This document shows, in pieces, positions 6,109 through 39,148 of a DNA stretch of 40,997 bases. The stretch covers positions 1-40,997 of the forward strand of contig CAIKTE010000235.1 of the NCBI GenBank assembly GCA_903830285.1. Direction: 5' to 3'. The stretch is from an uncultured Chitinophagaceae bacterium. Lineage in GTDB: Bacteria > Bacteroidota > Bacteroidia > Chitinophagales > Chitinophagaceae. The translations under genes were made by a program, and so were the position numbers. Each line of letters begins with the position of its first letter. Position 1 is the first letter of the stretch. The notes under the pieces were generated by a model, which saw only the letters and a program-made list of their open reading frames with translations, had not been told where the DNA came from and did no database searches.

Positions 6109-6495
6109 ATGAATAAAAAGATTTTAGCTTTTCTTTCCTTTAGTTTATTATTATTTGCCTGTCATCGTAAATCAATACCCGGTGGCGAAGGAAATATAGT
6201 GACCGAAACAGGTAATGCTTCTTTTTATTCTGATAAGTTTGATGGAAAACTAACTTCCAACGGAGAAACATTCAAGCAAAACAAATTAACGGCAGCGCAT
6301 AAGAAAATTGCATTTGGTACGAATGTAAAAGTGACCAACTTATCCAATGATAAATCTGTGATCGTTCGCATTAATGATCGCGGTCCATTTGTAAGCGGTA
6401 GGATGATTGATCTGAGTAAAGCAGCTGCCAAACAAATTGATATGATCGATGCCGGAGTTGCGAAAGTGAAGATAGAATATAGAAGAAAGCCGTGA
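6109..6495 (+). CDS. RlpA-like lipoprotein (double-psi beta-barrel)
   Basis: 128 residues from the ATG at 6109; a TTG five codons upstream also keeps the frame. Lipobox LLFAC puts the cysteine near residue 18. The mature domain is RlpA-like: [21 protein letters not shown], then [10 protein letters not shown] and [19 protein letters not shown], the signature of the double-psi beta-barrel with its conserved Asp. RlpA proteins act on peptidoglycan lacking stem peptides at division sites, but many short homologues lack a SPOR domain, as this one does, and their activity is not assured. Confidence 0.9.
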
Positions 6496-6556
6496 GTTAT
6501 GAGCTATGAGTCGCGAGCGTTTTGCTCATAGCTCAAAGCTCGCGACTCATAGCTAA
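6494..6556. repeat. Inverted heptad-repeat tract between rlpA-like gene and comB
   Basis: Bases run in 7-base words (GAGTTAT, GAGCTAT, GAGTCGC), then the reversed words follow (AGCTCAA, AGCTCGC, GACTCAT). A perfect 17-bp inverted repeat joins 6502-6518 to 6538-6554 with a 19-base loop. It has the same form as the tracts in the arginine operon but no gene between its arms. Confidence 0.85.
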
Positions 6557-18573: not shown

Positions 18574-19767
18574 ATGGCAAAAAAAGTAGTTCTGGGATTC
18601 AGCGGCGGATTGGATACCACATTCTGTGTAAAGCATTTTGAAGAAAAAGGTTATGAAGTGCACAGCATCATTGTGAACACGGGTGGATTTAACGAAGAAG
18701 AAATAAAGAAGATCGAAGAACATGCGTACAAACTAGGTGTAAAAACACATACTACTGTTAACGCTGTCAAAGGTTATTACGACACAATCATCAAATATTT
18801 GATATTCGGAAATGTGTTGAAGAATAATACTTACCCTTTAAGTGTTAGTGCAGAAAGATTAAGTCAGGCTTTGCATATTGCAGAACACGCCAAAAAATTA
18901 AATGCAGATGCAGTAGCCCATGGCAGTACCGGTGCAGGAAATGATCAGGTGCGTTTTGATATGATCTTTCATATCATGATCCCGGGTATCGAGATCATCA
19001 CACCGATCCGTGACCTGAAATTAAGTCGCGAAGAAGAGATCACTTATTTAAAAAGTAAAGGTGTTGATATGAATTTTGCGAAAGCAGGTTATTCTATCAA
19101 CAAAGGATTATGGGGTACCAGTGTTGGGGGTAAAGAAACATTGAACAGTAAAGGAATTTTACCGGAAGAAGCGTGGCCAACACAAGTCACTGAGTCGGGA
19201 AGTAGGGAAGTGCGATTACATTTTATAAAAGGTGAACTGTTTGAAGTGGATGATAAAAAGTTCTCTCATCCAACAGAAGCCATTCAATATTTACAAACTA
19301 TTGCCGGTCCTTATGGTATCGGAAGAGACATTCATGTAGGTGATACAATCATTGGTATCAAAGGTCGCGTTGGTTTTGAAGCCGCTGCACCTATGATCAT
19401 TCTAAAAGGACATCACGCTTTGGAAAAACATGTTTTAACCAAATGGCAATTGAACTGGAAAGATCAGTTAGCACTATTTTATGGTAACTGGTTGCATGAA
19501 GGACAAATATTGGATCCGGTGATGAGAGATATTGAAGCGTATTTTATCAGCTCACAACAACAGGTAACGGGTGATGCATTTGTTCTATTGCAACCCTATC
19601 GTTTTCAGGTCATCGGAATTGAAAGTAAATATGATCTGATGAGCGCTAAGTTTGGAAAATATGGCGAAATGCATACCGGATTTACAGGAGAAGATGTGAG
19701 AGGCTTCAGTAAGATATTCGGCAATCAAACTTCTATCTATCACAAAGTGAAAGAAGCAGAAGGCTAA
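18574..19767 (+). CDS. argG: Argininosuccinate synthase
   Basis: 397 residues. The enzyme joins citrulline and aspartate using ATP to make argininosuccinate. Motifs: N-terminal PP-loop KVVLGFSGGLDTTFCVKHF, then VNTGGFNEEE, the substrate-binding segment VAHGSTGAGNDQVRFD, TPIRDLKLSREEEI, and SINKGLWGTSVGGKE. Length matches the family. The stop codon is part of the heptad tract that fills the gap to argC. Confidence 0.97.
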   Translation: MAKKVVLGFSGGLDTTFCVKHFEEKGYEVHSIIVNTGGFNEEEIKKIEEHAYKLGVKTHTTVNAVKGYYDTIIKYLIFGNVLKNNTYPLSVSAERLSQALHIAEHAKKLNADAVAHGSTGAGNDQVRFDMIFHIMIPGIEIITPIRDLKLSREEEITYLKSKGVDMNFAKAGYSINKGLWGTSVGGKETLNSKGILPEEAWPTQVTESGSREVRLHFIKGELFEVDDKKFSHPTEAIQYLQTIAGPYGIGRDIHVGDTIIGIKGRVGFEAAAPMIILKGHHALEKHVLTKWQLNWKDQLALFYGNWLHEGQILDPVMRDIEAYFISSQQQVTGDAFVLLQPYRFQVIGIESKYDLMSAKFGKYGEMHTGFTGEDVRGFSKIFGNQTSIYHKVKEAEG

Positions 19768-19839
19768 ACGCTGAAAGCCTATAGCAGGCATTTATTTAAT
19801 AATTGCGTTAAGCCTTAAGCTTTTCGCATTAAGCAAATA
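19761..19839. repeat. Inverted heptad-repeat tract between argG and argC
   Basis: Left arm 19761-19788 consists of 7-base words such as AGGCTAA and ACGCTGA and contains the argG stop codon. Right arm 19805-19839 consists of GCGTTAA, GCCTTAA, GCTTTTC and two further words. The arms are approximate reverse complements with a 16-base loop. The right arm ends 2 bases before the argC ATG. Confidence 0.8.
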
Positions 19840-19841
19840 AC

Positions 19842-20849
19842 ATGAAGATTAAAGTTGGCATCATCGGCGGCGCAGGTTATACAGGCGGAGAATTGATTCG
19901 TTTATTGATCAATCATCCTCAGGTTGAAATATGTTTTATCAACAGTTCAAGTAATGCAGGTAACAATGTAAGTAAAGTGCATGCAGATCTGGTGGGTGAA
20001 ACTGATCTGAAATTTTCAAGTGAATTAAATGAGGATATCGATGTTTTGTTTTTATGTGTGGGACATGGGGATGCGAAGAAATTTTTAGAAGCAAATAATA
20101 TCAGTGATAAAATAAAGATCATAGACCTTTCACAGGATTTCAGGCTTAGTTCAGGTTCAAGTTTCAAGTCGCCAGGTACTAGTAACCAGAAACCTGTAAC
20201 CAGAAACTTTATATACGGTCTTCCTGAATTAAACAGATCAGCAATTCAAACAGCAAATAATATTGCCAATCCGGGTTGTTTTGCTACTGCCATTCAATTG
20301 GGATTATTGCCTTTGGCAAATGCGGGTGTGCTGGGGGATGTATATACCACAGGCATTACAGGCAGTACAGGAGCGGGACAAAGTTTAAGCAACACCTCAC
20401 ATTTCAGTTGGAGGGCGAATAATATATCAGCATATAAAACTTTGCAACATCAGCATATTCATGAGATTCATCAAAGTTTGATTCAGTTACAAGACAATGA
20501 TGGCTTGCATGTTCATTTTGTTCCCTGGCGTGGAGATTTTACGAGAGGTATTTATGTTAGTTCTGTTGTTGATACTTCATTGCCACTGGAAGAAGTAAAA
20601 CAAATTTTCAAAGACTATTATAAAGATGCAGCATTCACTTTTGTTAGTGATACAATGATCGATCTGAAACAAGTAGTGAACACGAATAAATGTTTGATCC
20701 ATATTGAAAAGCAGGGAAATAAAATTGCAATTCATTCAACTATTGACAATTTACTGAAAGGTGCATCAGGACAGGCTTTGCAGAACATGAATTTGATTTT
20801 TAACATAGAAGAAACAACAGGATTAAAACTTAAAGCAAACTATTTTTAG
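19842..20849 (+). CDS. argC: N-acetyl(succinyl)-gamma-glutamyl-phosphate reductase
   Basis: 335 residues. It reduces the N-acylglutamyl phosphate to the semialdehyde with NADPH. Motifs: KVGIIGGAGYTGGELIRLL (dinucleotide binding), IKIIDLSQDFRL, and ANPGCFATAIQLGLLPL with the catalytic cysteine. An unusual insert lies between DFRL and YGLPELN, at about residues 105-123 (SGSSFKSPG...), encoded exactly by a tract of eight 7-base words at 20154-20209. Homologues as I recall them have only a few residues there. The insert falls in a surface loop before the catalytic strand, so the enzyme may still work. Confidence 0.95.
   Translation: MKIKVGIIGGAGYTGGELIRLLINHPQVEICFINSSSNAGNNVSKVHADLVGETDLKFSSELNEDIDVLFLCVGHGDAKKFLEANNISDKIKIIDLSQDFRLSSGSSFKSPGTSNQKPVTRNFIYGLPELNRSAIQTANNIANPGCFATAIQLGLLPLANAGVLGDVYTTGITGSTGAGQSLSNTSHFSWRANNISAYKTLQHQHIHEIHQSLIQLQDNDGLHVHFVPWRGDFTRGIYVSSVVDTSLPLEEVKQIFKDYYKDAAFTFVSDTMIDLKQVVNTNKCLIHIEKQGNKIAIHSTIDNLLKGASGQALQNMNLIFNIEETTGLKLKANYF
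20154..20209. repeat. Heptad-repeat tract inside argC
   Basis: Eight consecutive 7-base words, each starting with G, including GTTTCAA, GTAACCA (twice) and GAAACCT. The same vocabulary (GTTTCAA, TACAAGT) recurs next to the four-helix-bundle pseudogene near 25480. The reading frame of argC passes through. Confidence 0.85.
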
Positions 20850-20865
20850 GCAAAGGGCGAAAGAT

Positions 20866-20928
20866 TTAGGGTATAAGGTGTAAGGTATAGGGTGTAGGGA
20901 GTAAAGTTTGAGGTGTAGGATAAGGGGA
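20866..20928. repeat. Left heptad arm flanking the four-helix-bundle gene
   Basis: Nine consecutive 7-base words, for example ATAAGGT, GTAAGGT and ATAGGGT, begin 17 bases after the argC stop. Its reverse complement is found as the right arm at 21306-21333. Confidence 0.85.
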
Positions 20929-20944
20929 ATTAAAACAAAGAATC

Positions 20945-21319
20945 ATGAGGGACTATAAAAAATTAGAAGTGTGGAAGAAGTCGCATGAGATGTACTTGTA
21001 CATTAAGAAGAATGTTGCTGTTAAATTTCCTAAGGAAGAAAGATATGAGCTTACTTCTCAGTTATTAAGAGCAGCACTTTCCGTTCCTTTGAATATAGTT
21101 GAAGGATGTGGAAGATTTACCGATAAAGATTTTGCTCATTTTTTAGATACAGCTTTGGGTTCAACAAATGAAACAGATTATTGCTGTTTTGCAGCATCAG
21201 AATTAAATTATATAACACAGTCTGAATATGATTCAGCAAACAAATTAATTAATGAGGTAAGGGCAATGCTTATTTCTTTTCTAAAATTTTTAAGAAATGG
21301 TAACAACCCTACACCTTAA
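20945..21319 (+). CDS. Four-helix-bundle protein (23S rRNA intervening-sequence family)
   Basis: 124 residues matching the four-helix-bundle/IVP family: MRDYKKLEVWKKSHEMYLYI at the start, ELTSQLLRAALSVPLNIVEG, and TDKDFAHFLDTALGSTNETDYCCF. The family was first met as the protein encoded within intervening sequences of some bacterial 23S rRNA genes; the fold is also shared by Avd, the accessory protein of diversity-generating retroelements. It is not an arginine enzyme yet sits between argC and argD in the same orientation. Both sides carry inverted heptad arms, and its last residues NPTP and stop codon are part of the right arm. It looks like an inserted, still intact passenger. Confidence 0.93.
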   Translation: MRDYKKLEVWKKSHEMYLYIKKNVAVKFPKEERYELTSQLLRAALSVPLNIVEGCGRFTDKDFAHFLDTALGSTNETDYCCFAASELNYITQSEYDSANKLINEVRAMLISFLKFLRNGNNPTP

Positions 21320-21333
21320 ACCTTAAACCTTAT
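21306..21333. repeat. Right heptad arm flanking the four-helix-bundle gene
   Basis: Four 7-base words: ACCCTAC, ACCTTAA (twice) and ACCTTAT. The reverse complement contains ATAAGGT and GTAGGGT, words found in the left arm. It holds the stop codon of the four-helix-bundle gene, and its last two bases are the first two of the argD ATG. Confidence 0.85.
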
Positions 21334-22510
21334 GACTTTATTCGACGTTTATCCGCTTAACAACATCACTATTACAAAAGCACAGGGCTCATATGTATGG
21401 GATGAAAATGGTGTGCAGTATTTAGATATGTATGGTGGCCATGCGGTTATCAGTATCGGTCATACACATCCCCATTGGGTGAAAAGGATTGAAGAACAAT
21501 TAGAAAAGATCGCATTCTATTCTAACAGCATTATTATCCCCTTACAACAGGAACTGGCAACCAAATTAGGAAAGCTGAGTGGTAAGGAAGACTATCAATT
21601 ATTTCTTTGTAACAGTGGAGCGGAGGCCAATGAGAACGCCTTGAAATTGGCTTCTTTTCATAATGGCAAGAAAAAAATTGTAGCGTTTTCCAAATCATTT
21701 CACGGAAGGACTTCCTTGGCAGTTGCTGCAACGGATAATAAAAATATTGTTGCTCCTGTAAATGAAACAGACAATATTATTTTTCTTCCATTCAATGATG
21801 AAGCTGCTTTGCAGGAATGTTTTGAAAAACAGGGAAAGCAAATTTCTTCTGTGATCATTGAAGGAATACAGGGTGTTGGAGGGATCAATATTGCAAATGA
21901 ATCATTTTTAAAATTGATCAGAACCTTATGTGATGAATACAATGCTGTTTATATAGCCGATAGTGTTCAATGCGGCTACGGCAGAAGCGGACAATTCTTT
22001 GCACATGATTATGCCGGTGTAAACGCTGATATCTATACCATGGCGAAAGGAATGGGTAATGGTTTTCCTGTGGCCGGAATTCTAATTGCTCCGAATATCA
22101 AACCAAAGCATGGCATGCTGGGCACAACATTTGGTGGCAATCATCTGGCATGTGCAGCTGCATTGGCAGTTTTGGAAGTGATAGAAGACGAGAATTTGAT
22201 CAGCATGGCGAAACAAAGAGGCATGTATCTCATCAATAAATTAAAATCAATTGAGGAATTAAAAAATGTTCGTGGTCGCGGATTGATGATCGGCTTTGAT
22301 GTTCCGGAAGAATTAAAAGACCTGAAGAAAAAATTACTGCAGGATCATTTCATATTCACCGGTGAAGCAAAACCCAATGTGATACGATTATTGCCATCAT
22401 TGGCGATCAGCAGAAAACAGGTGGATGAATTTTTAGAAGCATTGAATGAAGCAATTGCGGAGTTGAAATCCCCAACCCCTAAAGCGGAGTTGGAAAACAT
22501 AGCTGAATAA
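21332..22510 (+). CDS. argD: Acetylornithine/succinylornithine aminotransferase
   Basis: 392 residues. A PLP enzyme that transaminates N-acylglutamate semialdehyde to N-acylornithine. Motifs: YLDMYGGHAVISIGHTHP, FLCNSGAEANENALKLA, FSKSFHGRTSLA, ADSVQCGYGRSG (Asp and Gln of the cofactor site kept; Ser where Glu is usual), and TMAKGMGNGFPVAG with the PLP lysine. The C-terminal tail LKSPTPKAELENIAE is encoded by a heptad-type repeat (22467-22494) and probably extends the ancestral end. The start codon lies at the edge of the right arm of the four-helix-bundle cassette. Confidence 0.95.
   Translation: MTLFDVYPLNNITITKAQGSYVWDENGVQYLDMYGGHAVISIGHTHPHWVKRIEEQLEKIAFYSNSIIIPLQQELATKLGKLSGKEDYQLFLCNSGAEANENALKLASFHNGKKKIVAFSKSFHGRTSLAVAATDNKNIVAPVNETDNIIFLPFNDEAALQECFEKQGKQISSVIIEGIQGVGGINIANESFLKLIRTLCDEYNAVYIADSVQCGYGRSGQFFAHDYAGVNADIYTMAKGMGNGFPVAGILIAPNIKPKHGMLGTTFGGNHLACAAALAVLEVIEDENLISMAKQRGMYLINKLKSIEELKNVRGRGLMIGFDVPEELKDLKKKLLQDHFIFTGEAKPNVIRLLPSLAISRKQVDEFLEALNEAIAELKSPTPKAELENIAE
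22467..22494. repeat. Heptad tract in the argD 3' end
   Basis: Words AATCCCC, AACCCCT, AAAGCGG and AGTTGGA follow in register. This is the C-rich/G-rich variety also seen at 22601-22628 and 23948-23975, here in opposite orientation and inside coding sequence. Confidence 0.7.
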
Positions 22511-22527
22511 TGACGAGAACGATCAAG

Positions 22528-22543
22528 TCCCGATATATCGGGA
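22528..22543. repeat. 16-bp perfect palindrome in the argD-argF' gap
   Basis: TCCCGATATATCGGGA is fully self-complementary. It sits between the argD stop and the heptad tract preceding argF'. It could form a small cruciform or be a remnant of another interspersed repeat. Confidence 0.6.
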
Positions 22544-22600
22544 GTGCTGAAACGAATTAAAATTGAAAAACTGGAAACATAATTTAATAACCAACATTTT

Positions 22601-22628
22601 AATTCCCCTTTCGGGGTTAGGGGTATGA
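22601..22628. repeat. Heptad tract overlapping the argF' start codon
   Basis: Words AATTCCC, CTTTCGG, GGTTAGG and GGTATGA. The last word contains the ATG of argF'. The tract matches 23 of 28 positions of the one inside argB (23948-23975). CCCC and GGGG blocks form inverted arms. Confidence 0.8.
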
Positions 22629-23602
22629 AACAATTTATTTCTGTAAACGATGTGCCCGATATCAATGCCTTGGTAAAAAAAGCATTGGCATATAAGGCGA
22701 ATCCTTTTGTTGATAAAACTTTGGGAGCAGGCAAACGTATAGGACTATTATTTTTAAATCCGAGTTTGCGTACACGTTTAAGTACACAGATCGCAGCTAG
22801 CAATCTGGGTATGGAAGCCATTGTTTTTAATGTTGATAAAGAAGGATGGGCACTCGAATTTGAAGAAGGCGCCATCATGAGTGGTAATACTGTTGAACAT
22901 ATCAAAGATGCTGCACCTATACTTGGGAATTATTTTGATGTACTGGCGATCAGAACTTTCCCTTCTTTAAAAAACAAAGAAGATGATTATAGCGAGATGT
23001 TCGTGAATCAATTCATTAAATACGCAGGTGTTCCGGTAGTAAGCTTAGAAAGCGCAACATTACATCCTTTACAATCACTGACCGATATTATTACTATACA
23101 GGAAAGCGCAAAGCTCAAGTCTCAAGGCTCAAAGCTAAAAATCGTATTATCATGGGCACCGCATATTAAACCTTTGCCTCAATGCGTGGCCAATAGTTTT
23201 GCGCAATGGGTGAATGCCTGGGGTGAAGCTGATTTTGTGATCACACACCCGGAAGACTATGAGCTGGATGAACAATTTACAAAGGGCGCAACTATTATAA
23301 AGAATCAGGACGAAGCATTGAAAGATGCCGATTATGTGTATGTAAAAAACTGGAGCACTTATACTGATTACGGTAAGATCTATGAGAACGATCCGGAATG
23401 GATGTTGACGAATGAAAAATTGGCATTAACAAATAGTGCCAAAGTGATGCATTGCTTACCTGTAAGAAGAAATGTTGAATTGAGCGATGAAATACTGGAC
23501 GGACCCAATAGTATCATAACACAGGAAGCAGGAAACAGAGTGTGGGCGGCGCAGGCAGTATTGGCAACCCTCCTAACCTCCCTGAAGGGAGGAACAAAGT
23601 AG
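22625..23602 (+). CDS. argF': N-acylornithine carbamoyltransferase (ArgF' type)
   Basis: 325 residues. It carbamoylates an N-acylated ornithine. Motifs: FLNPSLRTRLSTQIAASNLG (carbamoyl-phosphate loop in the form typical of acyl-ornithine enzymes), HPLQSLTD, WAPHIKPLPQCVANSF and the active-site MHCLPVRRNVE. Residue 90 is Val, in SGNTVEHI, at the position that is Pro90 in the Bacteroides fragilis succinylornithine enzyme and Glu92 in the Xanthomonas acetylornithine enzyme, which points to N-succinylornithine. A heptad tract encodes a loop near residues 163-172 (KLKSQGSKL), and another supplies the C-terminus (LLTSLKGGTK). The start codon lies in a heptad tract. Confidence 0.95.
   Translation: MKQFISVNDVPDINALVKKALAYKANPFVDKTLGAGKRIGLLFLNPSLRTRLSTQIAASNLGMEAIVFNVDKEGWALEFEEGAIMSGNTVEHIKDAAPILGNYFDVLAIRTFPSLKNKEDDYSEMFVNQFIKYAGVPVVSLESATLHPLQSLTDIITIQESAKLKSQGSKLKIVLSWAPHIKPLPQCVANSFAQWVNAWGEADFVITHPEDYELDEQFTKGATIIKNQDEALKDADYVYVKNWSTYTDYGKIYENDPEWMLTNEKLALTNSAKVMHCLPVRRNVELSDEILDGPNSIITQEAGNRVWAAQAVLATLLTSLKGGTK
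23111..23138. repeat. Heptad tract inside argF'
   Basis: AAGCTCA, AGTCTCA, AGGCTCA and AAGCTAA follow in exact 7-base register. The resulting loop is about four residues longer than in the B. fragilis enzyme as I recall it, between ITIxE and the WAPH strand. Confidence 0.8.
23566..23593. repeat. Heptad-type tract in the argF' 3' end
   Basis: Words AACCCTC, CTAACCT, CCCTGAA and GGGAGGA, with CCTCC/GGAGG inverted symmetry. It encodes the last residues of ArgF' and ends 16 bases before the argB start. Confidence 0.65.
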
Positions 23603-23608
23603 AAGATT

Positions 23609-24409
23609 ATGGAGAAGTTATATGTCATAAAAATTGGCGGAACCATTATTGATGATGAGGAGAAATTGAATCAATTTCTTCAATCCTTTTCATCTATAAA
23701 ATCCTCTAAAATCCTTGTCCATGGTGGTGGGAAATTAGCCACCAAATTGGCAAAGCAATTAGGTGTTGAACAACAGATGATAGATGGCAGAAGGATCACC
23801 GATGCAGAAACACTGAAGATCGTAACAATGGTCTATGCAGGTACGATCAATAAAAATATTGTAGCAAAACTGCAGGCATATCAATGCAATGCAATCGGAT
23901 TAAGCGGGGCAGATGGAAATTGTATTGTTTCTCATAAACGCGGTTCTAACTCCCCTTTTGGGGTTGGGGGTATTGATTATGGTTTTGTAGGAGATGTAGA
24001 TGAAGTGAATGCAACTTTATTAAAAAGTTTAATAGATCAAAATATTGCTGTTGTATTGGCGCCGATCACGGTTGATAAAAATGGTCAGTTATTAAATACC
24101 AATGCCGATACCATAGCACAGGAAACAGCTAAAGCATTAAGCAGTTTGTATGATGTTGAATTGATCTATTCGTTTGAGAAAAAGGGGGTATTACTGGATG
24201 TGCATGATGAATCAAGTGTGATCGCAACGATTGATCCGTCATCTTACAAAACATTAAAGGAAGGAAATAAGATATTTGAAGGCATGATACCCAAGCTGGA
24301 TAATGCCTTTTCGGCATTACAAAGCGGTGTTACAAAAGTGATCATTGGAAAAGCGGAGGAATTGGATCAATTAATTTCCGGTAATTCCGGAACAAGCATA
24401 GTTCAATGA
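23609..24409 (+). CDS. argB: N-acetyl(succinyl)glutamate kinase
   Basis: 266 residues of the amino acid kinase family; phosphorylates N-acylglutamate. Motifs: YVIKIGGTIIDDEEKL, KILVHGGGKLATKLAKQLG, MIDGRRITDAETL and AIGLSGADGNCI. Residues 112-121 (GSNSPFGVGG) are encoded by a heptad tract and lie between SHKR and IDYGFVGDV, where homologues have a shorter loop. Six bases separate it from argF'; its stop overlaps the argE start (ATGA), so the two are translationally coupled. Confidence 0.95.
   Translation: MEKLYVIKIGGTIIDDEEKLNQFLQSFSSIKSSKILVHGGGKLATKLAKQLGVEQQMIDGRRITDAETLKIVTMVYAGTINKNIVAKLQAYQCNAIGLSGADGNCIVSHKRGSNSPFGVGGIDYGFVGDVDEVNATLLKSLIDQNIAVVLAPITVDKNGQLLNTNADTIAQETAKALSSLYDVELIYSFEKKGVLLDVHDESSVIATIDPSSYKTLKEGNKIFEGMIPKLDNAFSALQSGVTKVIIGKAEELDQLISGNSGTSIVQ
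23948..23975. repeat. Heptad tract inside argB
   Basis: AACTCCC, CTTTTGG, GGTTGGG and GGTATTG: the same element as at the argF' start (22601-22628), differing at 5 of 28 positions. There it spans a start codon; here it is read in frame within the gene. Confidence 0.8.
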
Positions 24410-25479
24410 GCGAGCAAGAATTAAATACTTTATTTACTGATGCATTCGGCCTGTTAAAAAAGCTGATCGCAACAGCTTCTTTAAGCAAAGAAGAGGAAGA
24501 GACAGCCGAGATCATTCAAATGTTCCTGGAATCTCATGGTGTGGTTACGCATCAATACCTGAATAATATCTGGGCAAGGAATAAATATTTTGATACAAGT
24601 AAACCAACGATCCTTCTTAATTCCCATCACGACACAGTTAAACCAAATAAGGCTTACACATTAAATCCTTTTGAACCCGTTGAAAAAGATGGAAAACTTT
24701 TTGGGTTGGGAAGTAATGATGCTGGCGGATGTTTGGTTTCACTGATTGCAACATTTTTGAATTATCACAAACAGGAAAATTTAAAATACAATATTATCAT
24801 TGCTGCAACTGCGGAGGAAGAGATCAGCGGACCAAATGGTGTTGAGATCTTATTGCCGCGCTTGCCTAAAATAGATTTCGGTATCGTTGGTGAGCCTACA
24901 CTCATGAATATGGCATTAGCCGAAAAAGGTTTGTTGGTATTGGATTGTATCGCTCATGGCATACCCGGCCATGCGGCAAGAGAAGAGGGGGAGAATGCTT
25001 TGTACAAAGCAGTGAAAGATATTGAATGGTTCAAAAATTATAGATTTGAGAGAGTGAGTGATTTGCTAGGACCCATGAAAATGAGTGTGACCATCATCAA
25101 CGCAGGATCACAGCATAACGTGGTGCCAAGTGAATGTAAATTCACGGTGGATGTTCGTGTAAATGAATTGTACAGTTTTGAAGAAGTGCTGGATACGATC
25201 AAAGCAAATGTGGTGAGTGATGTGATCCCGAGAAGTTGCCGTTTGCGTTCAACTTCTATTCCTGTTGAGCACCCGATCATTCAATCAGGAATTCAATTAG
25301 GCAGAACTTATTATGGCTCTCCCACAACAAGCGATAAAGCTTTGATGAGTTTCCCTACCTTGAAAATGGGTCCCGGAGATAGTGCCAGAAGTCACACAGC
25401 AGATGAGTTTATTTATGTGGATGAAATAAAGAACGGAATTGATTTGTATATTCAGTTACTCGATAAAGTAGTTAAGTAA
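24406..25479 (+). CDS. argE: N-acylornithine/N-acylcitrulline deacylase (M20 peptidase family, ArgE-like)
   Basis: 357 residues of the M20 zinc amidohydrolase family. Metal ligands are visible in LLNSHHDTVKP (HxD), GLGSNDAGG, AATAEEEISG (catalytic Glu followed by ligand Glu) and FGIVGEPT. With ArgF' present, the natural substrate in the pathway is N-acylcitrulline rather than N-acylornithine. The first four bases overlap argB. Its stop codon lies in the left arm of the second four-helix-bundle cassette. Confidence 0.93.
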   Translation: MSEQELNTLFTDAFGLLKKLIATASLSKEEEETAEIIQMFLESHGVVTHQYLNNIWARNKYFDTSKPTILLNSHHDTVKPNKAYTLNPFEPVEKDGKLFGLGSNDAGGCLVSLIATFLNYHKQENLKYNIIIAATAEEEISGPNGVEILLPRLPKIDFGIVGEPTLMNMALAEKGLLVLDCIAHGIPGHAAREEGENALYKAVKDIEWFKNYRFERVSDLLGPMKMSVTIINAGSQHNVVPSECKFTVDVRVNELYSFEEVLDTIKANVVSDVIPRSCRLRSTSIPVEHPIIQSGIQLGRTYYGSPTTSDKALMSFPTLKMGPGDSARSHTADEFIYVDEIKNGIDLYIQLLDKVVK

Positions 25480-25509
25480 GTTGCAGGTTTCAAGTTGCTT
25501 GTTACAAGT
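25475..25509. repeat. Left heptad arm flanking the four-helix-bundle pseudogene
   Basis: Five 7-base words: AGTAAGT, TGCAGGT, TTCAAGT, TGCTTGT and TACAAGT. The argE stop codon is inside. The reverse complements appear in the right arm (AACTTGT, AACCTGT). Confidence 0.85.
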
Positions 25510-25544
25510 ATGCGAAGAATTGAATCCTTAAATAAATTTAATTC

Positions 25545-25943
25545 ATGAAAAGTTATCGTGATTTAGAAATATATAAAGAAGGCAAACGGCTTGCAGTGCT
25601 GATTCATAAATTAACTTTGACACTGCCGAAATTTGAGTTGTATGAAGAAGGAAGCCAGATTCGCCGTTCATCGAAAGCCGTGAAAACTCTGATTGTTGAA
25701 GGATAGGGAAGAAAAAGATACAAAGCTGATTTTATAAAATTTCTAGTATACTCACAGGCAGAATGTGATGAAACAATTGTTCACTTGGATTTTTTATTTG
25801 AAACGGAATCTTTTAAAGATTCAACTTCTTATAATGAATTGAAACAAGAATATGAATCGTTAAGCAAAAGGATCAATAAATTTATTCAATGGGTCGATGA
25901 TAATTGGAATGATTTCCCAAAAGCTGAAACCGGAGACAAATAA
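25545..25943 (+). pseudogene. Four-helix-bundle protein gene interrupted by one TAG
   Basis: An otherwise open frame of 132 codons beginning MKSYRDLEIYKEGKRLAVLI, with codon 54 a TAG (25704-25706). After it the frame continues GRKRYKADFIKFLVYSQAEC and DETIVHLDFLF to a TAA at 25941. Family members known to me read EGYGRKRYK here, so the TAG replaces a conserved Tyr. It belongs to the same broad family as the protein at 20945, but to a different branch (longer, with YEEGSQIRRSSK). It lies between argE and argH and has inverted heptad arms. Either a recent nonsense mutation or, less likely, a read-through site. Confidence 0.9.
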
Positions 25944-25976
25944 CTTGTAACCGGCAACCTGTAACATGAAACCGAT
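25921..25976. repeat. Right heptad arm flanking the pseudogene, abutting argH
   Basis: Eight 7-base words in perfect register, mostly beginning AAC: AACTTGT, AACCGGC, AACCTGT and others. It includes the pseudogene stop, and its last base is directly followed by the argH ATG. Confidence 0.9.
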
Positions 25977-27308
25977 ATGAAACTCTGGCAAAAGGATATT
26001 GATGTAAACAAAGCAGTTGAAAATTTTACTGTTGGTAACGACCGTGAGTTTGATCTATTATTAGCGCCTTTTGATGTGATCGGAAATATTGCACACGCTA
26101 AAATGCTTGCAAGTGTTGGTTTATTGACGAATGAAGAATCAGTTACATTAACGAAAGAATTAAAAAATATATATGCCAGCATTCAGCATTCCTCTTTTAG
26201 CATTCAGCCTAATGTAGAAGATGTACATTCTCAAGTAGAATTTTTATTAACTGAAAAATTAGGAGACATTGGCAAAAAGATCCACAGCGCAAGAAGCCGT
26301 AACGATCAGGTTTTAGTGGATGTGAAATTATTTCTTCGAAATGAGATTGAAGAGTTGGTGAATGAGATTCAACCTTTCTTTCAATTACTCATTCAGCAAA
26401 GCGAAAAATATAAAGCACATTTATTGCCCGGCTACACACACTTGCAATTAGCCATGCCATCATCATTCGGTCTATGGTTTGGGGCTTATGCAGAAAGTTT
26501 GGTGGATGATGTTACAGTATTGCAATCGGCTTATAAAGTTGTTAATAAAAACCCTTTAGGAAGCGCCGCCGGTTATGGTTCTTCGTTTCCTATCAACAGA
26601 ACTCTAACTACGCAGTTATTAGGTTTTGCCGATCTCAATTATAATGTAGTGTATGCACAAATGGGACGTGGTAAAGCAGAACGTATCACTGCACAGGCAT
26701 TGGCAAATGTGGCTGATACTTTGGCAAGATTGAGCATGGATATGTGTTTATATCTAAATCAGAATTTTGATTTTGTTTCTTTCCCAACAGAACTCACAAC
26801 AGGCAGCAGTATCATGCCGCACAAAAAGAACCCGGATGTGTTTGAACTCATTCGTTCCAAATGCAACAGTTTAAAAGCATTGCCAAACGAGATCACTATG
26901 ATGACGACCAATCTTCCTTCCGGTTATCATCGCGACCTGCAATTATTAAAAGAACATTTATTCCCTGCTTTTAAAACATTGAAGGATTGTCTGCAGATGG
27001 CTGCTCTAATGCTCAGTAATATTTCTGTAAAAGAAAATATTGTGGCAGATGAAAAGTATAAATACATATTCAGTGTGGAAGAAGTGAATAAACTGGTATT
27101 GCAGGGTGTTCCTTTCAGAGATGCTTATAAAAAGATAGGCTTGGATATTGAAGCCGGTAAATTCACATACTCAACCGAAGTTAATCATACTCACGAAGGA
27201 AGCATCGGCAATCTCTGCAACGATAAAATAGAAGCCATGATGCAGCAAAACCTTACAGCATTTGATTTTGAAAAAGTTCATGCCGCGATTCAAAATTTAT
27301 TGAAATAA
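25977..27308 (+). CDS. argH: Argininosuccinate lyase
   Basis: 443 residues. It splits argininosuccinate into arginine and fumarate. Motifs: VEDVHSQVEFLLTEKLGDIG, KKIHSARSRNDQVLVDVKL, HLLPGYTHLQLAMP and the fumarase-superfamily signature TGSSIMPHKKNPDVFE. A heptad tract (26177-26211) encodes ASIQHSSFSIQP, at a loop before VEDVHSQ where homologues have variable sequence of similar length. It is the last gene of the operon, followed by a strong terminator. Confidence 0.96.
   Translation: MKLWQKDIDVNKAVENFTVGNDREFDLLLAPFDVIGNIAHAKMLASVGLLTNEESVTLTKELKNIYASIQHSSFSIQPNVEDVHSQVEFLLTEKLGDIGKKIHSARSRNDQVLVDVKLFLRNEIEELVNEIQPFFQLLIQQSEKYKAHLLPGYTHLQLAMPSSFGLWFGAYAESLVDDVTVLQSAYKVVNKNPLGSAAGYGSSFPINRTLTTQLLGFADLNYNVVYAQMGRGKAERITAQALANVADTLARLSMDMCLYLNQNFDFVSFPTELTTGSSIMPHKKNPDVFELIRSKCNSLKALPNEITMMTTNLPSGYHRDLQLLKEHLFPAFKTLKDCLQMAALMLSNISVKENIVADEKYKYIFSVEEVNKLVLQGVPFRDAYKKIGLDIEAGKFTYSTEVNHTHEGSIGNLCNDKIEAMMQQNLTAFDFEKVHAAIQNLLK
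26177..26211. repeat. Heptad tract inside argH
   Basis: CAGCATT occurs twice in tandem, then CCTCTTT, TAGCATT and CAGCCTA in exact register (five words). It is translated in frame. Confidence 0.8.
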
Positions 27309-27701: not shown

Positions 27702-30056
27702 TTATCTTCCTCCAATAAAAACAATTTTAGTGACCATTCTTTCACTGCCATCATCATTTCTTACGATCACCAGATACACGCCGGATAAGGCTTTTACACC
27801 GTTATAATTTTTCCCATCCCAAATGGCCTGTCCGCCCAAAGCCCTTGTTTGATATACCAATCTTCCATTTAATTCAGCAATTTTTACCAGACTATTATCA
27901 GCCAATCCGCGAATTGCAATGCTGCCATTATAATTTGGTGGAACGGGATTGGGGAATACCAGTACATTGCTATTTGTTTCGCCGCCTTCTGTAGCGGTAC
28001 TTCTGAAACTGCAAATGCCGGCAAATGTTGCAATGAACACCTCCCCTGTTTGCGGATCGATGTTTATTTTTTTTACATCATTATGTAAGAGGGGGGAATT
28101 ATCTGCAGTAAAATTATAAAGGATCTTATCTCCTTCAGCAGATACTAACCACAGTCCGTTTTTTGTACCAACCCATTTTCTATTGGCACCATCAACTGCG
28201 ATGCATTGTACAGTTTCGTTCTGAAATAAATATCCTGCAAACTGATCCTGTTTGATGATGGGTAAAATGGCATCGCATTTTTGTTGAAAAACAGAACTGG
28301 CACATTGCACAACTGCAATACCATGATCGGTTCCGATCCAGATAAAACCATTCTTATCTTTTGCCAAACAATACACATTATTGCTGGGTAAGTTTCCGGT
28401 ACCGATGCCCGTTTGAAAATATTTCCATTGATCATCACTTGTTGCATCAATGCTGCTGCCATAATTATAACAGAACACTCCATTGTTTCTCGGGCTCACC
28501 ATCCACAATTGATTGGCATCGTCCACGACGATCTGACTCAATGCATTTTCAATATGCGTGAATGGGATGGTGAAACTTTTCCAGCTACCATCTGCTTTTA
28601 AAACTTTCAGATCCTGCGAAGCCGCGTAATTGCTGATCCATAAATTATTGTTTTGATCGAATACCAATCCGCTTACGCGATAACTTGATACATCACCAAT
28701 GGCAGGTTGCAAATAATTTTGTTTGTAGATCTTGATCTTATCATCTTTGATATTTACTAATCCGCCTCCGTAACTTCCCGCCCAAATGCTTTGGTCACGC
28801 GGATCAGCAGCCAATGCTATAAAATCCAAAACAGAATCCAGTGAAGCAGTATTGTAATAACCTTTATCATCCCAAACATCATTGCTAAATGAATAGATAC
28901 CGTTTCGGTTGTAGGTATAATTCCAGGCATCATCAACTGTTCCGGCTGCTGCATATAGAACATTATTTTGAAAAAGGATATCGCCTGTTGCTGTTCCTAA
29001 CGGACCATTTGGAATAAATCGTTCTACAGTTGTTGAAAAATTAGATAGGCCTCCATAGAGATCAGCCACCCAGATACTGCTGTTATCGATCAATGCATTT
29101 TGCGGAAAAGAAATGATTCCTGCCTGCGCAATTGTTTTGATGATCTTTCCTGTAATATCTAATTCGATCACCCTGCTGGCGCCTGCAGTTGTTCTCTGAC
29201 AAACCGTAAGATTACCAGAAGAAGCATTACTGTTTACGATCGGCCAGGCAGCATCAGCATATAACAGGTTCCAATTATTGTTATTTAAAATAAAAAGGGA
29301 ATCATTTTTTTGTACTATGATCTTATTGTTTGTGAATAAGATATTCTTTACGGCACCTGCACTCAAACCATTGCTGCCGCTTAGATTGAGCCAGTTCTTA
29401 TAATCAGCAAGATTATTAGCATTGAGGGCTGCTCTTTTTAATCCTTCATCCGTAGCGGCATAATAATAAGTAGCATCGGTTGTGAACGCATTTACTTTTA
29501 TCTGAGTTCCGTTACTGCCGATAAACCATGTGTCTTTGATCTCGAATTTTGTAAGATCAGTAACAATGATCCCCAATCCGCTACTCAAATATGCAAAACC
29601 ATTCCTGCAAAAAATATTAGAAATAGACTTATTGCCACTGATCGTACTTCGTTTGATATCACTGATATTTTGAACAATACTCCCTTTCAGCAGATCAAGA
29701 TCACTATTATTATAAGCGATCACCAATTGTTGTGTAAGATCATCCCAGCCAATACAACTCACGCCCATTTCATTGAGCCCAGTTATCTTACTGTAACGTT
29801 CAATTTCATTCGTAGCATCAATACTGAAGAGATTGGTTTGTGTGGCACAATAAATTTTATCTCCCTTCAAAACCTGTATCGTATTTTGATAGTTCAGATG
29901 CTCACGCCAGTAGCCGATAGGTGGAATAGGATTCTGTGCGTAAGAAGTGAAATGTGAAATGTGAAATGTGAATAGCGTGATGATTATTTTAACTGCTGTA
30001 TTTATTACAGTATTGCTCTTGACATTTGACATTTGACTTTTCACCATTGACAACAT
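27702..30056 (-). CDS. porZ: Type IX secretion system protein PorZ-like (beta-propeller)
   Basis: 784 residues from the ATG at 30056. PorZ acts at the cell surface in the type IX system, where it helps deliver anionic lipopolysaccharide to the sortase that attaches cargo. Seen: PIPPIGYWREHLNYQNTIQV after the signal peptide, repeated propeller blades with IYCATQTNLFSID, FIWIGTDHGIAVVQ and KWVGTKNGLWLVS, and a C-terminal domain ending VYLVIVRNDDGSERMVTKIV, like a T9SS-type C-terminal domain. The signal peptide region is built largely from two heptad tracts (VKSQMSNVKSN and FTFHISHFTS), and the start codon lies within one. It begins 18 bases after the permease stop. Confidence 0.85.
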   Translation of the reverse strand: MLSMVKSQMSNVKSNTVINTAVKIIITLFTFHISHFTSYAQNPIPPIGYWREHLNYQNTIQVLKGDKIYCATQTNLFSIDATNEIERYSKITGLNEMGVSCIGWDDLTQQLVIAYNNSDLDLLKGSIVQNISDIKRSTISGNKSISNIFCRNGFAYLSSGLGIIVTDLTKFEIKDTWFIGSNGTQIKVNAFTTDATYYYAATDEGLKRAALNANNLADYKNWLNLSGSNGLSAGAVKNILFTNNKIIVQKNDSLFILNNNNWNLLYADAAWPIVNSNASSGNLTVCQRTTAGASRVIELDITGKIIKTIAQAGIISFPQNALIDNSSIWVADLYGGLSNFSTTVERFIPNGPLGTATGDILFQNNVLYAAAGTVDDAWNYTYNRNGIYSFSNDVWDDKGYYNTASLDSVLDFIALAADPRDQSIWAGSYGGGLVNIKDDKIKIYKQNYLQPAIGDVSSYRVSGLVFDQNNNLWISNYAASQDLKVLKADGSWKSFTIPFTHIENALSQIVVDDANQLWMVSPRNNGVFCYNYGSSIDATSDDQWKYFQTGIGTGNLPSNNVYCLAKDKNGFIWIGTDHGIAVVQCASSVFQQKCDAILPIIKQDQFAGYLFQNETVQCIAVDGANRKWVGTKNGLWLVSAEGDKILYNFTADNSPLLHNDVKKINIDPQTGEVFIATFAGICSFRSTATEGGETNSNVLVFPNPVPPNYNGSIAIRGLADNSLVKIAELNGRLVYQTRALGGQAIWDGKNYNGVKALSGVYLVIVRNDDGSERMVTKIVFIGGR
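29944..29971. repeat. Heptad tract in the porZ signal-peptide region (inner arm)
   Basis: AATGTGA occurs three times in perfect tandem, preceded by GAAGTGA. On the minus strand it encodes FTFHISHFTS, the end of the signal peptide. It is the inverted partner of the tract at 30016-30057. Confidence 0.85.
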
Positions 30057-30057
30057 A
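30016..30057. repeat. Heptad tract spanning the porZ start (outer arm)
   Basis: Six words including CTCTTGA, CATTTGA (twice) and CTTTTCA. On the minus strand the words read as rotations of AATGTCA, near-identical to AATGTGA in the inner arm, so the two tracts form an inverted pair around 44 bases. The porZ ATG is inside. Confidence 0.85.
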
Positions 30058-30059
30058 GC

Positions 30060-30067
30060 CAAATTTA
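30060..30067 (-). promoter_or_regulatory. -7 promoter element just upstream of porZ
   Basis: On the minus strand TAAATTTG matches TAnnTTTG and ends 3 bases before the ATG, implying a leaderless or near-leaderless transcript if used. No matching -33 was clear. Confidence 0.4.
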
Positions 30068-38575: not shown

Positions 38576-39148
38576 ATGCACTACGATGGTTATAAAATAA
38601 GAGATCAGCAAGCAATATATTTCATCACCTTTGCTACTGTACAATGGGTAGATGTATTCAGCAGGTATTGTTATGCAGAAACATTACTTGAGAGTTTACG
38701 ATTTTGTATAAAAGAAAAATATTTATCTCTGCATGCATAGTGTTTAATGAGCAATCATATTCATCTTATTATAAGTTCACAAAAAGGAAATCTTTCAGAT
38801 ATTTTAAGAGATTTCAAAAAATTCACTTCTGGTAGTATCATTAAACAAATTGAAAGCAATGCAGAAGAAAGTCGTAAGAACTGGATGCTCTGGATATTTA
38901 AAAAGGCAGGTGAAAATAATAACAGGAATAAGAATTACCAATTCTGGCAACAAGATAACAGACCCATACAATTAGAAACACCAAAATTCACTTTGTCTAA
39001 ATTGTTGTACTTGCATAATAACCCTGTTAAAGCAGGCTTAGTAGAGAAAGCAGAAGATTACTTATTGAGCAGTGCAAGAGATTTTAATGGAGGTAAAGGA
39101 TTATTACCCATTGATCATTTGAATGCTGCATATGATTTGCGGCAATGA
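38576..39148 (+). pseudogene. REP-associated tyrosine transposase (RAYT, Y1_Tnp) with one in-frame TAG
   Basis: Reading from the ATG at 38576 gives MHYDGYKIRDQQAIYFITF and so on, with codon 55 a TAG (38738-38740), then CLMSNHIHLIISS in the same frame to 39148 (190 codons). The HUH motif HIHLI and the catalytic Tyr in KLLYLHNNPVKAGLV are present. Homologues read HAYC or YAYV before MSNH, so the TAG replaces a Tyr. REP-type palindromes in opposite orientation flank the gene, as in REPtrons, where the RAYT nicks such hairpins. Translation from the internal ATG (38747) would lack the first strand of the fold. Confidence 0.88.

Follow-up and report, generated by a model that had tools for sequence, protein, structure and literature searches.

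Inverted arrays of short words around S23-family genes: a candidate small mobile element of bacterial operon spacers

S23-type genes, which encode a four-helix-bundle protein and are known so far chiefly from inserts in ribosomal RNA genes, were found here in operon spacers, flanked by two arms that are built of a short repeated word and inverted with respect to one another. Comparison of genomes showed the association of arm, gene and arm, the presence or absence of the unit in sister species, and the occupation of the same site by different lineages. With moderate confidence, we propose that left arm, S23 gene and right arm form one small mobile element (about 400-500 bp) with a word-recognizing protein. 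The protein probably recognizes the word of its own arms, and the element itself would be able to move. More tentatively, at rather less than even chances, such elements may form a new class among bacterial mobile elements, with members in several phyla and with a lone Avd-like protein that reads its own arm word, many private word-protein pairs diverging jointly; IVSs would be the rRNA members of this class, and much of the so far unexplained intergenic heptanucleotide repeat DNA of bacteria would be its gene-less debris.

Results

Two arm-flanked genes in an arginine operon

The window (the whole stretch of DNA analysed, 40,997 nucleotides) carries element 1 in the argC|argD spacer and element 2 in the argE|argH spacer, neither of them within a 23S rRNA gene. 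Their parts are:

20867-20903, forward strand: left heptad arm of element 1; lag-7 tract, score 18; word GGTNTAA; aligned core 20873-20899
20945-21319, forward strand: open S23 gene of element 1, encoding a four-helix bundle of 124 aa; PF05635 E 3.4e-35, TIGR02436 E 3.3e-32
21306-21333, reverse strand: right heptad arm of element 1; reverse complement of the left arm; lag-7 tract 21306-21332, score 16
25480-25509, forward strand: left arm of element 2, lying directly 3' of the argE stop; word AGGTTNC; pairs with the right arm
25545-25943, forward strand: S23 pseudogene of element 2; PF05635 with one internal TAG; TIGR02436 also matches
25941-25972, reverse strand: right heptad arm of element 2; lag-7 tract, score 11; pairs with the left arm; 4-nt gap to the argH start codon

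The arms of element 1 (20873-20899 and 21307-21333) are complementary at 24 of 27 positions without a gap, and those of element 2 (25480-25509 and 25943-25972) at 24 of 30. In both cases none of 2000 base shuffles and none of 2000 random window pairs paired as well, bearing out the original prediction that inverted arms surround both genes. The 7-base build ascribed to all four arms was evident in both arms of element 1 and in the right arm of element 2, but the left arm of element 2 was only weakly 7-periodic and contained no lag-7 tract scoring ≥10; TRF called a 14-base repeat there, at 25478-25509. The gene of element 1 is open, whereas that of element 2 carries an in-frame TAG at codon 54 (25704-25706) and is therefore a pseudogene in this genome; argE|argH copies elsewhere have a TGA (G002) or an open frame (G004). 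The proposed contacts between arms and codons were mostly confirmed. The stops of argG, argE and both S23 genes touch or sit in arms, the right arm of element 1 containing the S23 stop; the argD ATG (21332) lies at the end of the same arm, and the argH ATG begins 5 bases past the last aligned arm base. Element 1 holds a single gene, with PF05635 as the sole Pfam match, and PF01797 (Y1 transposase) was absent from the Pfam scan of the gene flanked by its arms.

At a threshold score of ≥10, the entire 41-kb window contained 10 tracts at lag 7 and 0, 5, 1, 1, 2, 1 and 0 at lags 5, 6, 8, 9, 10, 11 and 13, respectively. Heptad tracts occur inside coding sequence, too, and elsewhere in the window. 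Tracts other than those of the two elements included:

19766-19835, no strand assigned: argG-argC gene-less hairpin; lag-7 tract 19805-19835, score 10; weakly paired
20153-20207, no strand assigned: gene-less heptad insert inside argC; in frame, 10 extra residues, word like that of element 2
23103-23140, no strand assigned: heptad tract within the argF' coding sequence; lag-7 score 19

Of the gene-less argG-argC and argD-argF' tracts, claimed to share the build of the elements, the former pairs weakly, 82 of 2000 shuffles doing as well, and the latter is of another build, a non-heptad palindrome, CCCCTAACCCC/CGAAAGGGG. Among congeners, the argG-argC site has a similar hairpin in G002, while in G001, G003 and G004 its spacer is 350 nt long and contains an open frame. 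The argC insert falls at a gap in the ArgC of four congeners and six other loci compared, and it matches an arm of element 2 at 25 of 30 positions (16 of 2000 permuted words did as well). Species comparison revealed different heptad tracts at the argF' position in some other species.

Arms accompany S23 genes in many genomes

Arrays of 7- or 8-base repeats on both sides, mutually reverse-complementary, were found at 145 of 206 PF05635 genes and at 3 of 367 control genes, which had no S23 hit within 700 nt. The remaining 61 PF05635 genes lacked at least one of the two properties, and four near-duplicate pairs persist in the pool of 206 (L039, L056, L059; L058, L060). Both properties were present in 99 of 124 loci collected by likeness or genus, in 28 of 52 from the phylum-wide set, which comprises the best-scoring matches only (30 loci and 20 further stretches), and in 10 of 21 other copies of eleven genomes; outside loci picked for resembling the window's gene or for belonging to its genus, the figure was 46 of 82. 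Of 37 rows in one match list, 30 have loci, one input set of 31 elements lost 3 to filters and 7 as doubles, and 9 copies from G037 were kept, the others repeating the phylum set or failing the filters.

PF05635 and control genes were separated by inverted complementarity with an AUC of 0.938, and by periodicity with AUCs of 0.888 and 0.854. When the set was reduced to <60% identity, 62 of 103 genes had both properties; the left arm was fitted by its own right arm at 18.9 and by the right arms of others at 9.4, and for 57 elements the own right arm was the best of all 103. Plasmid copies, 7 of which were taken from 15 hits, scored 21-33, two of the seven being one shared segment.

Chance periodicity was ruled out, since lags 5, 6, 9 and 10 hardly distinguished S23 genes from controls. 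So was a strict seven-base period: period 8 was elevated in the phylum-wide set and is visible by eye in, for example, L112, L127, L140 and L141. Some loci had direct rather than inverted arrays or no clear pair (e.g. L233, L153, L124, L122, L128, L147 and L158). The predicted family of inverted heptad arms around such genes is thus present far beyond the arg operon, and the lack of enrichment that had been named in advance as its refutation was not borne out.

The word follows the protein

The word differs between lineages (GGTNTAA in lineage A, AAAGCT in lineage C) and tracks the protein (Mantel r 0.689, the best of 999 permutations giving 0.138; 9 of 133 elements were excluded for flanks or coverage), and the correlation holds also at different sites. 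At S23 identities of 0.8-0.9, four-fold sites had covered 85% of the distance to chance and the arm match 13% of that to background, although the two quantities, arm score and four-fold identity, are measured differently. As judged from these alignments, the words are conserved beyond synonymous decay. Co-descent and concerted evolution could preserve them even if nothing recognized them.

In comparisons of relatives that share >0.8 identity but occupy different sites, the left arm of one element fitted the right arm of another as well as its own (17.0 cross versus 16.4 own; 17.6 versus 17.7); a deltaproteobacterial group of five yielded no tracts by the method used. Exact pairing is therefore not what is kept, and it is unsupported as the conserved property. 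Mismatches between arms were G-U in 227 cases and A-C in 269 over 172 elements (132 and 171 in a separate count), so that there is no sign of an RNA stem being kept under selection.

These results weaken an RNA-level view, in which the elements would be mRNA counterparts of the rRNA IVS: the arms would pair in the transcript, RNase III would cut the stem, the element would be tolerated or used for separating cistrons, and the protein would be an RNA-binding passenger. This view draws on the sense direction of most copies, their inverted arms and intercistronic position, on the Avd-like fold, which has been seen in a DGR ribonucleoprotein structure, and on the Coxiella IVS, whose heptamer-bearing stem is cleaved by RNase III, as described in passages of the source cited (PMC4990558). 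We nevertheless consider it unlikely, given the absence of a G-U excess, the equality of cross-element and own fit, and an Rfam search of 19500-26500 with no match at E ≤1.

Gene-less tracts and selection on the protein

In G037, 51 lag-7/8 tracts were found in 400 kb, one of them having an S23 gene no more than 700 nt away. The gene-less words of this genome matched resident arms at 15.02, as compared with 10.92 for permuted words (sd 0.41, maximum 12.12). Overall in G000, the genome to which the window belongs, gene-less words scored 10.13 against resident genes and permuted words 10.66; they were diverse, and most were unrelated to the resident genes. The gene-less derivatives originally proposed are thus supported in G037 and by the argC insert, but not in G000 as a whole.

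The preponderance of gene-less tracts in G037 and the diversity of words in G000 speak for an explanation in which heptad hairpins, being prone to slippage, move or arise by themselves and carry the S23 gene in their loop by chance. That the word follows the protein and that G037 gene-less words match the resident arms argue against it, as does the purifying selection on S23 (median omega 0.042, with 0 of 306 unsaturated pairs >0.5), and we regard such a passenger role as quite unlikely.

The protein and possible partner enzymes

The AlphaFold model of the gene 1 product (pLDDT 94.9) matches 2GSC with a TM of 0.89. It has the same fold as Avd of diversity-generating retroelements, as portrayed in the cited passages (PMC10053308; 4DWL, 8UBE), with a TM of 0.77 to 4DWL, and the Avd sequence model finds it as a remote match (E 1e-5). 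Unlike Avd, it scores 25.8 bits against a cut-off of 80, and S23-bearing genomes may lack a reverse transcriptase (below). The median net charge of S23 is no more than +2, and so gives no evident sign of nucleic-acid binding. Structures of PF05635 proteins have been solved, and the literature passages cited here assign them no function. None of the PADLOC models of anti-phage defence matched the one protein scanned.

A resident enzyme might move the elements in trans. It could be a reverse transcriptase, by analogy with DGRs, or, by analogy with REPINs, a transposase of the Y1/RAYT type. This would fit the Avd fold and remote Avd match, and Y1_Tnp was present in 10 of the 11 S23-bearing genomes searched, although G000 has only a broken copy, on this contig. 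However, RVT_1 was found in 52 of 118 Bacteroidota genomes and PF05635 in at least 90 of the 118 (up to 16 in one genome among the matches listed). RVT_1 was absent from 6 of the 11 S23-bearing genomes searched, including G124 (17 S23 matches), G132 (13) and G127 (12 in 1.0 Mb), and G003, which has 8 S23 matches and is listed as 100% complete, lacked both RVT_1 and Y1_Tnp at E ≤0.001. A reverse transcriptase partner is thus rejected as a requirement for present-day upkeep, and we judge movement by either enzyme improbable.

Empty sites and exchange of occupants

Within one genus whose ArgD proteins are 92-93% identical, argC|argD is empty (14 nt) in G001 and G004, and is occupied by lineage A in G000 and lineage B in G003; argE|argH is empty (18 nt) in G001 and filled in G000, G002 and G004. 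The lineage A protein is closer to L031 (84% identity) and to Pedobacter copies (75-80%) than to the lineage B protein found at the same site, argC|argD (47%). Empty sites, suggested beforehand as a check in sister species, indicate that the elements are not ancestral to the operon. Among loci picked by similarity to one arg-operon protein, S23 hardly followed its host at argC|argD, where S23 and ArgD identity correlated at r 0.13; at argD|argF' r was 0.28, and 256 of 385 and 81 of 136 host pairs, respectively, with ArgD ≥85% identical had S23s <65% identical. The recurrence of the argC|argD position in Chitinophagaceae and Pedobacter loci notwithstanding, an old, vertically inherited operon gene with chance or terminator-like repeats around it can be dismissed in view of the empty sites, the unrelated lineages inside one genus, the r of 0.13 and the scarcity of such arms among controls (3/367).

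There were 130 pairs with S23 identity ≥85% at different arg-operon sites; in the 80 most similar, homology extended from -37 to +34 around the gene (IQR -44 to -32 on the left, 24 to 43 on the right). In 80 sampled same-site pairs, it reached the limit of about ±200. Homology between copies at different sites, as aligned here, stops at the arms.

Most copies lay in sense orientation, 3 of 164 being reversed; one plasmid copy was fully reversed. Of the 88 copies that lie outside the arg operon, 73 had a gene of the same strand on either side, equal to the 83% baseline for other genes. No transposition was seen in the genome comparisons, and no target-site duplication was apparent by eye at the junctions of the congeners compared, which define no insertion mechanism. 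The G037 copies read all had different words, so that no recent burst was seen, and phage carriage found zero matches in 50,697 phage records.

Discussion

We favour the reading of left arm, S23 gene and right arm as one small mobile element. Its arms would be tandem arrays, inverted with respect to each other, in which a word of 7 or 8 bases recurs in degenerate form, with word and protein forming a lineage-specific pair. The Avd-like four-helix-bundle protein would bind the repeated word, in all likelihood in the form of DNA or of a single strand, an oligomer may join both arms together, and cutting and joining may be performed by a host enzyme. Insertion would be mostly into intercistronic gaps in the sense direction, with decay giving rise to pseudogenes, half-elements and gene-less hairpins. 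The IVSs of 23S rRNA that carry an S23 ORF would be those elements whose insertion happened to hit rRNA.

Foldback transposons, such as FB, Galileo and Tetris of Drosophila, have inverted terminal repeats that are internally repetitive; they are eukaryotic and much longer, and autonomous copies contain a transposase. The elements described here resemble them in their inverted termini of short tandem repeats (145/206 S23 genes versus 3/367 controls), but have one four-helix-bundle gene of about 125 codons and, in element 1, no transposase.

The comparison with the 23S IVS made in the original prediction was strengthened. As presented in passages of the source, IVSs with an S23p ORF (e.g. in Coxiella and Leptospira) have a scattered distribution and are horizontally transferred; the Coxiella IVS has complementary ends and tandem heptamers upstream of its ORF, their number varying between strains; and a mobility component encoded by the IVS ORF has already appeared in print as a theory (PMC4990558). 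The two share protein family, complementary ends and sense orientation. They differ in that the elements here lie outside rRNA, in operon spacers, with several copies per genome and gene-less forms, and in that their arms are degenerate 7/8-mer arrays on both sides, with lineage-specific words and no G-U bias.

REPIN/RAYT systems, as outlined in the cited passages (PMC3116915), likewise combine a cognate gene with short inverted repeats that can form hairpins outside genes, and many of their copies have no gene; here, gene-less tracts with the words of resident arms were seen in G037 but not in G000 overall. The cognate gene here is no Y1 transposase, and the arms are 7-8-mer arrays whose word varies by element. 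STRR heptanucleotide repeats (GGGNATC) of cyanobacteria and Xanthomonas are intergenic, genome-wide, variable in repeat number and generally without mobile-element association; the cited passages describe no link to S23 genes or inverted pairs (PMC4692102).

Our findings provide the common PF05635 proteins with a genomic context open to bench experiments, and they tie together three puzzles: the S23 ORFs in rRNA IVSs, the orphan four-helix-bundle genes and the intergenic heptanucleotide repeats. Operon spacers, and even stretches within enzyme genes, are filled by such sequence. If recognition is real, word and protein would constitute a protein/DNA-word pair that diverges fast enough for its recognition code to be read by comparison.

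S23 elements in the arginine operon

The window is one entire contig (C235) of the 3.99-Mb draft genome G000. Within its arginine operon, the identities of argC, argD, argF′ and argE were confirmed by Pfam domains. The names argG, argB, argH and GNAT are presumed and served as query labels only. The original prediction placed two four-helix-bundle genes in this operon, each within inverted arms of 7-base words. Both genes are members of the family, each matching PF05635 and TIGR02436 (hereafter S23 genes).

Features of the window
6468-6541, heptad tract, word TGAGTTA, resembling a gene-less hairpin
20945-21319, S23 gene 1, between argC and argD
22463-22629 and about 23940-23970, palindromic CCCCTTT-GGGG repeats of a non-heptad type
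25545-25943, S23 gene 2, between argE and argH, with an in-frame TAG
26177-26208, argH coding stretch; heptad-like words vary among congeners, protein length unchanged
29940-29972 (GTGAAAT words) and 30019-30051 (TTTGACA words), heptad tracts where the minus-strand gene 27702-30062 has its 5′ end; by eye, each is partly the inverse of the other

The arms were complementary at 24 of 27 bases around gene 1 and at 24 of 30 around gene 2, and for both genes this pairing was equalled by none of 2000 shuffles and none of 2000 random window pairs. The 7-base period expected of the gene 2 arms was only partly borne out: they are complementary, but the left arm is weakly 7-periodic and contains a 14-base repeat. 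Of the gene-less tracts described as having the same build, the argG-argC hairpin is weak and the argD-argF′ tract is a non-heptad palindrome of a different type. The argG-argC spacer carries a hairpin in G000 and its congener G002, and is a 350-nt stretch with an open frame in the congeners G001, G003 and G004 (loci L245, L247 and L007).

The same anatomy in other genomes

All six PF05635 matches in G000, one of them a fragment, have repeat tracts on both sides by eye, each with its own word. Loci were collected from five genomes of the genus (30 loci, including these six), named genomes chosen by likeness to the window gene (79), a selection of the top-scoring matches across 118 Bacteroidota genomes (50), eleven genomes reached via the likeness loci (30; several are MAGs, with records labelled deltaproteobacterial, cyanobacterial and Patescibacteria/Dojkabacteria), the S23-bearing genome G037 (14) and plasmids (7 of 15 hits). 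Filtering and removal of doubles, plasmid loci left out, gave 206 distinct S23 genes. The controls were 367 genes from the first 109 loci (genus and likeness), each more than 700 nt away from any S23 gene.

Lag-7 tract scores (left/right) were 10.9/12.7 for S23 genes as compared with 4.9/5.9 for controls, and lag-8 scores were 5.8/5.8 as compared with 4.4/4.6, while at lags 5, 6, 9 and 10 the two sets were nearly alike. Inverted complementarity separated S23 from control genes with an AUC of 0.938. Periodicity and inverted complementarity occurred together at 145 of 206 S23 genes and 3 of 367 controls, confirming the enrichment proposed as a check in other genomes. By source, both were present in 99/124 (genus and likeness), 28/52 (phylum-wide, some copies having period 8), 10/21 (other copies of the eleven genomes) and 8/9 (G037). 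When the set was reduced to proteins less than 60% identical, both were present in 62 of 103, complementarity exceeded the control 95th percentile in 84 of 103, and the own right arm was the best fit of 103 for 57 elements. The seven plasmid copies (six cyanobacterial, two of these belonging to a single shared segment, and one Gemmatirosa) had inverted-arm scores of 21-33. Among the exceptions, the arrays of loci L233, L153 and L124 appear direct rather than inverted, and loci such as L122, L128, L147 and L158 lack a clear arm pair.

Of 164 elements flanked by genes on both sides, 149 had both neighbours on their own strand and 3 were fully reversed. Outside the arg operon the same-strand proportion (73/88) equals the 83% baseline of other genes there, of which 2% are fully reversed; thus, only the scarcity of reversed copies is notable for something that inserts. 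A fully reversed element was found on a Calothrix plasmid. Two plasmids of one Calothrix strain (L255, L256) share one element together with its neighbours, indicating one shared segment rather than independent insertions. Elements occupied argC|argD, argD|argF′, argE|argH, argB|argE, GNAT|argG and argG|argC, cas6|cas4 on two cyanobacterial plasmids (L257 and L259, the latter adjoining cas1d), a plasmid spacer that separates parB from an AAA-ATPase gene and, recurrently by eye, the gap before a thiolase-like gene.

Gene and arms form one unit that comes and goes

The likeness between the left arm of one element and the right arm of another increased with protein identity, and did so between different sites as well (0.06 below 40% identity, 0.41 at 80-90%). 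Across 124 elements the Mantel r between arm and protein similarity was 0.689, and the highest value among 999 permutations was 0.138. In four lineage groups, of which two overlap, word profiles of left arms correlated with those of reversed right arms at 0.93-0.98. Different-site pairs at arg-operon sites with S23 identity of at least 85% numbered 130; in alignments of the 80 closest pairs, homology had a median start at -37 and end at +34 relative to the gene, which are the outer arm edges, whereas in 80 sampled same-site pairs it extended roughly to the end of the stretch. We conclude that the arms and the S23 gene are one unit.

Empty sites, sought in sister species, were found among congeners whose ArgD proteins are 92-93% identical. 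At argC|argD, G001 and G004 have an empty 14-nt gap, G000 an element of lineage A and G003 one of lineage B. The argE|argH gap is 18 nt in G001, carries the element in G000 (TAG), G002 (TGA) and G004 (open), and in G003 is an unrelated 274-nt stretch. At argC|argD, the proteins of the two lineages share 47% identity, while lineage A is 84% identical to the copy at locus L031 and 75-80% to Pedobacter copies. S23 and ArgD identity at argC|argD were scarcely correlated (r 0.13, 44 elements): S23 proteins were less than 65% identical in 256/385 host pairs with ArgD at least 85% identical, and more than 75% identical in 62/407 with ArgD below 75%. At argD|argF′ (23 elements) r was 0.28, with 81/136 and 0/60 for the same classes. 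By eye, spacers lacking the gene were short, or else contained decayed remnants, heptad hairpins without a gene, or other repeats and genes; the maximum was three S23 genes per arg operon (L036).

Gene-less tracts

G037 is a single 5.1-Mb contig with 14 PF05635 matches. In the 400 kb of it that were sampled, tracts with a score of at least 13 numbered 31 at lag 7, 15 at lag 8 and 0-4 at lags 4, 5, 6 and 9-13. Only one of 51 lag-7/8 tracts scoring at least 12 had an S23 gene no more than 700 nt away. For twelve, an inverted partner lay at most 500 nt downstream (null 1); the loop was 14-27 nt long in nine of them, and one of the twelve is the S23 element itself. The idea that gene-less tracts derive from the element found support in G037, where the words of the 50 other tracts matched resident S23 arms at 15.02, as compared with 10.92 for word-permuted arms (sd 0.41, maximum 12.12) and 11.57 for other genomes' arms (maximum 13.56), but not in G000 overall, where 23 tracts matched no better than the comparison (10.13 versus 10.66). 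The G000 argC gene has an in-frame 10-residue heptad insert, absent from ArgC of four congeners and six other loci compared, that is alike at 25 of 30 bases to an arm of the argE|argH element (equalled by 16 of 2000 permuted words). The argF′ coding sequence has a heptad tract at window 23103-23140; at this place loci L085 and L031 carry longer inserts built of different words.

What is conserved

The S23 protein is under strong purifying selection (median omega 0.042, 306 unsaturated pairs), with W10, Q39, S46, N50, E53, G54 and R57 invariant in a 22-sequence alignment. For different-site pairs, decay was scaled toward chance at four-fold sites and, for arm match, from own-arm toward background level; the measures are unlike, and the trend alone counts. 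At S23 identities of 0.9-1.0, 0.8-0.9, 0.7-0.8 and 0.6-0.7, four-fold sites had decayed by 73, 85, 94 and 100%, and arm match by 23, 13, 36 and 64%, respectively. This indicates that arm words are kept, as the protein is. Own arms fitted each other no better than they fitted arms of close relatives, and arm mismatches showed no G-U bias (227 G-U, 269 A-C). The conserved property is the lineage word in an inverted array rather than an exact stem. By inference, this favours a protein that recognises the word of its lineage rather than an RNA stem. The suggestion of an mRNA-level counterpart of the 23S rRNA intervening sequence (IVS) agrees with the unit and its inverted arms, but is weakened by the lack of G-U bias and by own arms fitting no better than relatives' arms.

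Proposed mechanism and relation to known systems

The unit, its polymorphism and the lineage words are the steps that comparison demonstrates. An S23 oligomer (a solved Xanthomonas relative is described as a homopentamer; PMC4990558) might bind several repeats per arm and join the two arms by bridging; a host activity would then excise the unit or copy it into gaps between cistrons, slippage could alter repeat number, and gene loss would leave hairpins behind. Y1 transposase was found in 10 of 11 S23-bearing genomes searched, with no match at E ≤ 0.001 in G003, which has eight S23 matches. In the window, a Y1_Tnp (PF01797) match at 38618-38872 contains an in-frame TAG, and the transposase gene is probably broken.

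A diversity-generating retroelement is ruled out for the family, many hosts having no reverse transcriptase, and a resident reverse transcriptase is unnecessary for element upkeep; a passage of one paper on these retroelements remarks on PF05635/Avd homology (PMC10053308). For the window element, REPIN/RAYT is ruled out by the flanked gene and a 23S IVS by location. Among the open-access titles and abstracts listed, subscription journals being mostly outside this scope, no report linked S23 genes outside rRNA to inverted heptad arrays. The nearest passages in print are in papers on the Coxiella IVS (PMC4990558), Xanthomonas/Nostoc heptamers (PMC4692102) and REPINs (PMC3116915), and a figure legend in a CRISPR survey names the PF05635 domain. 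The element most resembles an IVS with foldback-type ends.
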